Of a stretch of 64,000 nucleotides of DNA, positions 30,997-34,343 are shown in pieces. How positions within the stretch are numbered: the first letter of the stretch is position 1; every line of letters begins with the position of its first letter. The position numbers and the translations under genes are program-made. The notes below the pieces were generated by a model. That model made no database searches. It saw only the letters and a program-made list of their open reading frames with translations, and was not told where the DNA came from. Source of the stretch: Oleomonas cavernae (GTDB lineage: Bacteria > Pseudomonadota > Alphaproteobacteria > Zavarziniales > Zavarziniaceae); NCBI RefSeq assembly GCF_003590945.1, contig NZ_QYUK01000011.1, forward strand, positions 2,570,001 to 2,634,000, read 5' to 3'.

Positions 30997-31028
30997 AAAA
31001 GAGGGCAGCCGAAAGGCTGCCCTCAATC
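30997..31028 (-). terminator. Rho-independent terminator after rplQ
   Basis: On the minus strand GAGGGCAGCC, TTTC loop, GGCTGCCCTC, then TTTT. It lies about 40 bases past the rplQ stop and marks the end of the ribosomal block, just before the htrA-like gene. Confidence 0.85.
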
Positions 31029-31061: not shown

Positions 31062-31478
31062 TTATTCCTCGGTGTCGTCGGCGACCTGCACCGGGCCCGA
31101 GTCCAGGCCCTTGGCCGAGATGTCGCGGTCGACCAGTTCGATCACCGCCAGCGCCGCGGCATCGCCCCGGCGGAAGCCGGCCTTCAGCACGCGGGTATAG
31201 CCGCCGGCGCGGTTGGCGTAGCGCGGCCCGATGACCTCGAACAGCTTGCCGACCGTCTTCTCGTCGTACAGATGGGCCAGCGCCTGGCGCTTGGCATGCA
31301 GGCCACCGCGCTTGCCGAGCGTGATCAGCTTCTCGACATACGGCCGCAGCGCCTTGGCGCGCGGCAGCGTCGTGGTGATCTGCTCGTGCTTGAGCAACGA
31401 CGCAGCCATGTTCGCAAACACGGCGCGGCGGTGCGAATTGTCCATGCCGAGCTTCACTCGGGCAACGCGATGACGCAT
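31062..31478 (-). CDS. rplQ: 50S ribosomal protein L17
   Basis: A 138-residue large-subunit protein, N-terminus [19 protein letters not shown] and the [16 protein letters not shown] motif diagnostic of L17. The C-terminus carries a family-variable acidic tail (DDTEE). Last gene of the alpha operon; it is followed by a strong terminator. RpoA precedes it by 50 bases. Confidence 0.96.
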
Positions 31479-31528: not shown

Positions 31529-32587
31529 TCAGAAATTGTTCTCTTCGAGGCGCTTGGCGAGCTCCTCGATGTTCTCAGGCGGCCAGTCGGGCACTTCCAT
31601 GCCCAGGTGCAGGCCCATCTGCGCCAGAACTTCCTTGATCTCGTTCAGCGACTTGCGGCCGAAGTTCGGGGTGCGGAGCATTTCCGCCTCGGACTTCTGG
31701 ATCAGGTCACCGATGTAGACGATGTTGTCGTTCTTCAGGCAGTTCGCCGAACGGACGCTGAGTTCCAGCTCGTCGACCTTGCGCAGCAGGTTGCGGTTGA
31801 ACTTGGGCTCGAGCGGGGTCGACTCGCGGATCTCCTGGCGCGGCTCCTCGAAGGAGATGAAGCGCTGGAGCTGGTCCTGCAGGATGCGGGCGGCGATCGC
31901 GACCGCGCGGTCGGGCTCGATCGCGCCATTGGTCTCGACCTGCATCACCAGCTTGTCGAGTTCGAGGTTCTGGCCCTCGCGGGTGTTCTCGACCCGGTAG
32001 GCGACCTTGCGGACGGGGCTATAGAGGCTGTCGACCGGGATCAGGCCGATCGGGGCGTCCTCGGGACGGTTGCGGTCGGCCGGGACGTAACCCTTGCCAT
32101 TCTGCACCGTGAATTCCATGTGGATCTTGGCGCCGTCGTCGAGCGAGCACAGCACCAGGTCGGGGTTCAGGATCTCGATGTCCGACGGCACGGTGATCTG
32201 GCCGGCGGTCACCTCGCCCGGGCCCTGGGCCTTCAGGGTCATGCGGCGCGCGCCTTCGACATGCATGCGCAGGGCGATCTGCTTGATGTTCAGGATGATG
32301 TCGGTCACGTCCTCGCGAACGCCCGGGATCGACGAGAACTCGTGCAAAACGCCGTCGATCTTCACCGCGGTCACGGCAGCACCCTGCAGCGACGACAGCA
32401 GGATCCGGCGCAGCGAGTTGCCCAGCGTCAGGCCGAAGCCGCGCTCCAGCGGCTGCGCGACGACAGTCGCGAACCGCTTGGGATCATCGCCGCCGACCAC
32501 TTCGATCTCGGCCTTCTTGAGGTTCTTCCAGTTGTCCTGAATCACGTCTTCGACCTCATCCTTGGCTTGCCGGCGGCGTCGGATCAT
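31529..32587 (-). CDS. rpoA: DNA-directed RNA polymerase subunit alpha
   Basis: A 352-residue alpha subunit. The N-terminal assembly domain shows [20 protein letters not shown]; the C-terminal domain (from about residue 265) has the helix-hairpin-helix region [15 protein letters not shown] and [14 protein letters not shown] that contacts UP elements and activators. [11 protein letters not shown] at 32587 is preceded at five bases by AGGGGA; ATG at 32605 is an alternative. Located between rpsK and rplQ as in other bacteria. Confidence 0.95.
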
Positions 32588-32699
32588 CGGATCCCCTGAC
32601 ACCATCGGCAAAATAGGGTGCCCTACCCCACGCCCCGGCCAGTCCATACCGGCGGGGCGGAATGCCGTGCCGCCACGAGCGGCACGGGCTCAATGCTAT

Positions 32700-33089
32700 T
32701 CAGACGCGGCGACGCTTGGGCGGACGGCAGCCGTTGTGCGGGATCGGGGTCACGTCGCGGATCGACGTGATCTGGAAACCGACCGCCTGCAAGGCGCGCA
32801 GGGCCGACTCGCGGCCCGAACCCGGACCGGTCACCTCGACCTCGAGGATGCGCACGCCGTGTTCCTGCGCCTTGCGGCCAGCGTCTTCGGCGGCGACCTG
32901 CGCGGCATAGGGGGTCGACTTGCGGCTGCCCTTGAAGCCCATCGTCCCGGCCGAGGACCACGAAATCGCGTTGCCCTGCGCGTCGGTGATGGTGATCATC
33001 GTGTTGTTGAAGCTGGCGTTCACATGCGCCACGCCCGAGGTGATGTTCTTGCGCTCGCGGCGCTTCACCCGTGCCTTTTCAACCGCCAT
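32700..33089 (-). CDS. rpsK: 30S ribosomal protein S11
   Basis: 129 residues, ending with the very conserved [20 protein letters not shown] tail that binds 16S rRNA in the platform. The central [18 protein letters not shown] segment also matches S11. It follows rpsM and precedes rpoA in the alpha operon, with a 112-bp gap before rpoA that shows no obvious element. Confidence 0.97.
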
Positions 33090-33165: not shown

Positions 33166-33534
33166 TTACTTCTTCTTGCCCGCGATCGGCTTCGCCGGGC
33201 CCTTGCGGGTCCGCGCGTTGGTGTGGGTGCGCTGGCCATGCACCGGCAGCCCACGGCGGTGACGCAGGCCGCGGTAGCAGCCCAGGTCCATCAACCGCTT
33301 GATGTTCATCGCCACTTCGCGCCGCAGATCGCCCTCGACCAGATAGTCGCGATCGATCACTTCACGGATCTGGCTGACCTCGGATTCAGAAAGCTGGTTG
33401 ACCCGGCGGCCGTCGGCGATGCCGACCTTCGTCACGATCTCCTTGGCCTTCTGCTGACCAATGCCATGGATATAGGTCAAAGCAATCTCGACCCGCTTAT
33501 TGGTCGGAATGTTGACGCCTGCGATACGAGCCAC
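33166..33534 (-). CDS. rpsM: 30S ribosomal protein S13
   Basis: 122 residues beginning (M)[19 protein letters not shown], with the [10 protein letters not shown] helix-two-turn-helix and the C-terminal [20 protein letters not shown], in part. The start is GTG at 33534, seven bases after AGAGG; the frame remains open upstream but that portion lies in the leader. First gene of the alpha operon, with its own consensus promoter just upstream. Confidence 0.95.
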
Positions 33535-33634
33535 CGCTAACCTCTTCGTGCCAAACGTTTCGTCGAAACCAGAACTTGTTCGCCCGACGCCTGCCAGGCG
33601 GACGCGCAAACGACAAGCGCGCCGCAGAGCATGC

Positions 33635-33682
33635 CCTGCCGACGAGAAGGGCGGATTATATGAGTCGGCAGGTCCATGTCAA
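33635..33682 (-). promoter_or_regulatory. Consensus sigma-70-type promoter of the rpsM operon, with overlapping inverted repeat
   Basis: On the minus strand TTGACA (33682-33677), 16-bp spacer, TATAAT (33660-33655), both perfect consensus hexamers and rare in this GC-rich genome. Transcription would start near 33648, giving a leader of about 115 bases. A 9-bp inverted repeat (GTCGGCAGG at 33664-33672, CCTGCCGAC at 33635-33643) brackets the -10 box and could be an operator or part of a structured leader. Confidence 0.75.
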
Positions 33683-33686
33683 TCAC

Positions 33687-34339
33687 TCAAGCCGCCACGA
33701 CGTCGAGTTCTCGCTCGATTTGGCGAGTCACGTCGTCGATGGGGGCCATGCCGTCGACCGTGCGCAGCACGCCGCGCGCCCGGTAGTAGGGCAGCAGCGG
33801 CGCCGTCTGGGCGTGGAAGGCTTCCAGGCGGCTGCGCACCGTCTCGGCATTGTCGTCGGCCCGGCGCTTGAAGTTGGTCGAGCCGCAGATGTCGCAAACC
33901 CCGGCCACCTTGGGCTGCTGGAACTTGTCGTGATAGCCGGCATTGCACTTGGCGCAGGTGTAGCGGCCCGACACGCGCTCGACCAGGACCTCGTCGTCGA
34001 CCTGCATTTCGATGACGGCGTCGAGCGCCAAGCCGCGCGTGGCCAGCATGCTGTCCAGGGCTTCGGCCTGGGCCACGGTGCGCGGGAAGCCGTCCAGGAT
34101 GAAGCCACCCTTGCAATCGTCCTGGGCAATCCGGTCGGCGATGATGCCGACCACGATATCGTCGGAAACGAGTTGGCCCGCCTCCATCACCGCCTTGGCC
34201 TTACGGCCCACGTCGGTACCGGCAGCAACGGCCGCGCGCAGCATGTCGCCGGTCGAAAGCTGTACCAGCCCCCTGGCACGCTCCAGACGCTGTGCCTGGG
34301 TGCCCTTGCCGGCCCCTGGCGGCCCCAGCAGAATCAGAT

Positions 34340-34343
<4 letters not shown>
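33687..34343 (-). CDS. adk: Adenylate kinase
   Basis: A 218-residue long-form enzyme interconverting AMP+ATP and 2 ADP. P-loop [10 protein letters not shown] (7-16), AMP-site STGDMLR, and DGFPRT near 84-89. The LID domain has four cysteines (CAKC and CDIC), so it should bind structural zinc. ATG overlaps the secY stop (ATGA). The position between secY and rpsM is typical of alphaproteobacteria. Confidence 0.95.

Follow-up and report, generated by a model that had tools for sequence, protein, structure and literature searches.

The promoter that precedes rpsM-rpsK-rpoA-rplQ in Oleomonas cavernae is, as judged from its sequence, genuine and ordinary in kind, namely the standard promoter of the alpha operon. 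The observations taken together would be best explained (probability approximately 0.9) by a housekeeping sigma-70 alpha-operon promoter with a predicted start site and putative ppGpp/DksA control, on which a genus-level inverted repeat is overlaid.

The alpha-operon promoter

Positions 33682–33655 of the window (the whole 64,000-nucleotide stretch of DNA analysed here) read TTGACATGGACCTGCCGACTCATATAAT on the minus strand, i.e. TTGACA-N16-TATAAT with the spacer TGGACCTGCCGACTCA; the hexamers match the consensus in 12 of 12 positions, and the spacer lies within the 16–18 bp taken for sigma-70 promoters. The first-pass annotation had reported a perfect promoter at this place, and its coordinates and hexamers are correct; the strand, which it left unstated, is the minus strand. 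The promoter does follow immediately after adk, as claimed there, with 4 nt between the adk stop codon and the -35 box; the distance down to the GTG start codon of rpsM (33534) is 148 nt. The rarity of consensus hexamers asserted there was also borne out for this genome: perfect TTGACA-N15..19-TATAAT sequences occur at two sites in the whole 5.64-Mb genome (reversed-pattern control, 0), and 100 dinucleotide-shuffled versions of the window contained none. Scanning for TTGACA/TATAAT-like sites is biased toward the consensus, and shuffles were used as the control.

The other perfect TTGACA-N16-TATAAT of the genome lies outside the window (L002:1456-1528; G000:C8, 82718-82745, minus strand). It is divergent from a gene that, by eye, resembles trpF. 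Directly after it comes a palindrome, CAGTATGCGTTACCAAGCGTCC-TGA-GGACGCTTGGTAACGCATACTG, long and nearly perfect, in a position that would suit an operator or a 5' hairpin.

The identities of the four genes and the strong terminator-like hairpin after rplQ (Table 1) point to one unit, for which co-transcription is predicted. The genes upstream of the promoter are secY and adk; no terminator was found between adk and rpsM by the same scan that returned the one after rplQ, and according to the gene list rpsD is absent between rpsK and rpoA and elsewhere in the operon. The promoter would give rpsM-rpsK-rpoA-rplQ a separate transcription input downstream of secY-adk. In E. coli, an alpha-operon promoter uncoupling alpha from spc is the usual arrangement. 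The earlier suggestion of uncoupling from the upstream ribosomal genes therefore holds in so far as the promoter drives these four genes, but with its conservation at the adk–rpsM junction across the class (see below) this is the normal role of an alpha-operon promoter and not a special device.

Table 1 Features of the rpsM promoter region and alpha operon (positions in the window)
Feature	Position	Strand	Basis or remark
-35 hexamer TTGACA, alpha-operon promoter	33677..33682	-	sequence; orthologous TTGAC in 103/108 loci
-10 hexamer TATAAT	33655..33660	-	16-nt spacer to -35
Upstream repeat arm CCTGCCGAC, in promoter spacer	33664..33672	-	invariant in six genus species, absent in G006
Downstream repeat arm GTCGGCAGG, in leader 5' end	33635..33643	-	sequence; invariant in six genus species
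GC-rich discriminator and pyrimidine-rich predicted start region CCGCCCTT	33647..33654	-	class-wide profile
Predicted 114-nt rpsM leader; Shine-Dalgarno GAAGAGG at 33547-33541	33535..33648	-	
Conserved 5' leader block GTCGGCAGGGCATGCTCTGCGGCGCG	33618..33643	-	kept in sister genus, variable loop
CGACG, possible long-range partner of CGTCG at leader 5' end	33561..33565	-	5/5 pairs in 6/7 sequences
adk, last gene upstream of promoter	33687..34343	-	
rpsM (uS13)	33166..33534	-	GTG start
rpsK (uS11)	32700..33089	-	gene identity
rpoA, RNA polymerase alpha subunit	31529..32590	-	start approximate
rplQ (bL17)	31062..31478	-	gene identity
Intrinsic-terminator-like hairpin GAGGGCAGCC-TTTC-GGCTGCCCTC then TTTT, operon end	31001..31024	-	

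Conservation in Alphaproteobacteria

The sample comprised 108 alphaproteobacterial loci with rpsM and its upstream DNA. TTGAC was present within 250 nt upstream of rpsM in 103 of them, against 18 expected by shuffling, and promoters scoring at least 10/12 were found in 57 (0.7 expected), all but three of these (54/57) with a 16-bp spacer. Both counts represent the conservation at the orthologous position that is looked for in a sigma-70 promoter. An essential promoter can here be traced base by base through a bacterial class.

The last base of the -10 box was compared across loci by anchoring on TTGAC. T at -7 (TATAAT) was found in the genus of the window, Azospirillum, Reyranella, Rhizomicrobium and records labelled Rhodospirillales or Rhodospirillaceae (e.g. 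L004-L018), and TATAAG or TATAAC in Brevundimonas (e.g. L046, L051, L056, L071), Asticcacaulis, Caulobacter, Phenylobacterium, Marinicauda, Alkalicaulis and Hyphomonas. The split at -7 follows lineage: Rhodospirillales-like groups carry T, Caulobacterales carry G or C, and neither the spacing nor the rest of the -10 box differs between them; sampled Rhizobiales and sphingomonads had mostly a degenerate -10 box at 17 bp. In two Reyranella loci (L074 and L088), a second TTGACAAG is situated exactly 19 nt before the TTGACT of the rpsM promoter, possibly as an alternative -35 element.

In four alphaproteobacteria, most promoters have been described as lacking -7T, translation genes being overrepresented in that set, and promoters without -7T were proposed to depend on CarD (Myers et al. 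2021, PMC8407463). CarD-family matches were detected in 57 of 60 relatives, the genome studied here included, where a short CarD-like ORF is located at G000:C11:1954224; many of the best matches were proteins of Mfd length. As nearly all relatives and this genome itself have such matches, absence of CarD was ruled out as the cause of -7T.

Discriminator and predicted transcription start

The discriminator, CCGCCC, is GC-rich, a feature typical of E. coli promoters inhibited by ppGpp/DksA (PMC9304144). Class-wide, the six bases past the -10 box have a mean GC of 0.90 versus 0.60 in the spacer; the high value partly reflects high genomic GC, though it exceeds that of the spacer. A gene for DksA is present in the genome. 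The GC-rich discriminator may make the promoter a target of growth-rate control by ppGpp/DksA, as at E. coli ribosomal promoters, and stringent control is, by this analogy, what we infer. The 16S gene, sought for a comparison with rRNA promoters, was not found in the genome assembly.

Positions 7–11 past the -10 box of the class-wide rpsM promoter are almost purely pyrimidine (94–99% at positions 8–10), which is unusual, because most bacterial transcripts begin with a purine. In the window, transcription would start near 33648, 7 nt past the -10 box and at a pyrimidine, a plausible place by its position; no mapped start of rpsM in this group came to light in a search of the literature.

Inverted repeat around the -10 box

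The first-pass annotation had also described a 9-bp inverted repeat enclosing the -10 box, and this repeat is indeed there, with 9 of 9 bp paired and a 20-nt loop that contains the -10 box and the presumed start. Repeats of 9 bp with a loop of up to 30 nt are common in the 64-kb window (66% GC), which has 51 of them, or 0.8 per kb. When the sequence was shuffled around the fixed hexamers, 0.1% of the shuffles had a repeat enclosing the -10 box and 2% a repeat anywhere in the 160-nt region; the level expected by chance is therefore approximately 0.1–1%, to which the conservation in six species comes as further evidence.

A stretch of 40 nt spanning both arms, 12 consecutive spacer bases included, does not vary among the six species of the genus, whereas their rpsM genes are invariant at only 25 of 60 fourfold sites. 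In three species of Azospirillum the genes are far more alike, with 52 of 61 fourfold sites invariant, yet the spacer of the rpsM promoter has diverged. The genus has a further promoter, TTGACG-N17-TATGTT, approximately 250 nt upstream of rpsL in the str operon (L117-L121), with a conserved start region, CGCGCCTCCACTCGGACGGCGGTGG. Its spacer and start region are partly conserved (the rpsL locus of the window's own genome was not recovered by the start motif in this comparison), so the excess conservation of the repeat is real but moderate. In the sister genus (G006, L010) the hexamers, the GC-rich discriminator and the downstream block, GTCGcCAGGGC-NNN-CTCTGCGGCGCG, are kept and the upstream arm is missing. 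We consider the repeat to be real, genus-specific and, on the strength of these alignments, probably under constraint.

The constraint might come from a dimeric regulator for which the two arms form a DNA operator and which, once bound, keeps RNA polymerase from the -10 box and the start site. Such a role would suit arms that are perfectly symmetric, lie on either side of the -10 box and do not change between six species whose fourfold sites mostly vary, the more so with the upstream arm sitting in a spacer that varies freely in other genera, e.g. Azospirillum. The site, however, is present as one exact copy in the genome, no second copy with up to two mismatches was found in seven genomes of the order, and counts at three mismatches in these genomes were close to the reversed control. 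Class-wide, repeats enclosing the -10 box were no commoner at orthologous promoters than expected by chance. The generic operator is therefore left unsupported, and with the loss of the repeat in the sister genus the specific control proposed in the first-pass annotation stays a proposal. The arms are moreover 29 bp apart centre to centre, which is wide for one dimer, and no candidate regulator is adjacent. We regard an operator, of which a dedicated form confined to the genus would be conceivable, as improbable.

Alternatively, the downstream arm would owe its conservation to the leader, its upstream complement having arisen by chance and being held in place by spacer constraint or limited divergence. 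This is the explanation we favour, at roughly even odds, over an operator and over the pairing in read-through RNA considered below, the weights being a matter of judgement. It is consistent with the abundance of 9-bp repeats in the window and with the partly conserved spacer and start region of the str-operon promoter; against it stand the run of 12 invariant spacer bases and the low odds that a repeat would enclose the -10 box by chance.

Leader of rpsM

The sister genus, which has no repeat, shares a conserved leader block at approximately +6 to +31, and this also favours a downstream arm maintained as leader sequence. The downstream arm belongs to this conserved 5' element. The block occurs once in the genome, and searches for other copies of leader elements in the genome or the order gave none above background. 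It contains a predicted hairpin, GCAGGG-CATG-CTCTGC (33639-33624). For the possible long-range pairing of CGACG with CGTCG, no two-sided covariation was observed in seven sequences. Among 25 leader pairs, 2 had two-sided changes, both in the poorly aligned middle and none in the relevant stems; the covariation term was 0.31 kcal/mol, or about 0 (only seven sequences), and the leader fold was no more stable than shuffles (z -0.71). The 'structured leader' offered earlier as an alternative to specific control is somewhat strengthened by the position of the downstream arm, with which the conserved leader block begins, but not by the covariation term or by fold stability. A leader fold common to the class was rejected, as leaders vary in length and fold (mean z of the first 50 nt -0.48, slightly below shuffles).

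The two arms might also meet in RNA. In a transcript reading through from secY-adk, the upstream arm would pair with GUCGGCAGG and prevent the 5' leader hairpins from forming; RNA started at the promoter would lack the upstream arm, and the two transcripts would differ in translation or decay. The predicted leader stems have precisely the downstream arm as their 5' strand, a 78-nt read-through fragment is predicted in all six members of the genus to fold into a 9-bp stem replacing the leader hairpin, and no terminator stands between adk and rpsM. Against this, the leader structure has next to no covariation and no excess stability, and the sister genus does without the upstream arm. We consider such pairing unlikely, and still less likely its fullest form, in which the repeat would mark two transcripts and the anti-leader arm of the read-through spc RNA would disarm a leader regulator, RNA from the alpha operon's own promoter lacking that arm. 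Unless one of the regulatory roles is demonstrated, the genus-level repeat would be of little consequence.

No Rfam family matched the window at the gathering threshold. In a permissive Rfam search, the S4-binding alpha-operon leader of the E. coli type (Alpha_RBS, RF00140) gave a sub-threshold match of 28.3 bits (E 9e-5; gathering score 38). The alignment (33573-33502) relies on the coding start of rpsM, has one base in place of 37 model positions and lies outside the conserved 5' block, and the operon lacks rpsD. A leader of this type is highly improbable and was rejected, the weak match being driven by the rpsM coding start.

Comparison with known promoters and operons

As is generally known, the E. 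coli alpha operon (rpsM-rpsK-rpsD-rpoA-rplQ) has its own sigma-70 promoter directly upstream of rpsM, and the operon described here is likewise equipped. The gene order is equal except for rpsD, which is missing here, where the upstream gene is adk; unlike in E. coli, no S4-type leader is present at the Rfam threshold. The 16-bp spacing is the same as that of rrn P1. Promoters under stringent control of the rrn P1 type also have in common with the present one strong hexamers and a GC-rich discriminator (for the discriminator, PMC9304144), whereas the promoter here drives a ribosomal-protein operon. With respect to promoters without -7T (PMC8407463), Caulobacterales and other sampled orders match that description at the rpsM locus; the lineage of the window, in contrast, keeps -7T and with it a full -10 element, often missing from translation genes in that study. 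The orthologous series, straddling this divide, provides a natural test of the proposed CarD dependence of alphaproteobacterial promoters without -7T.
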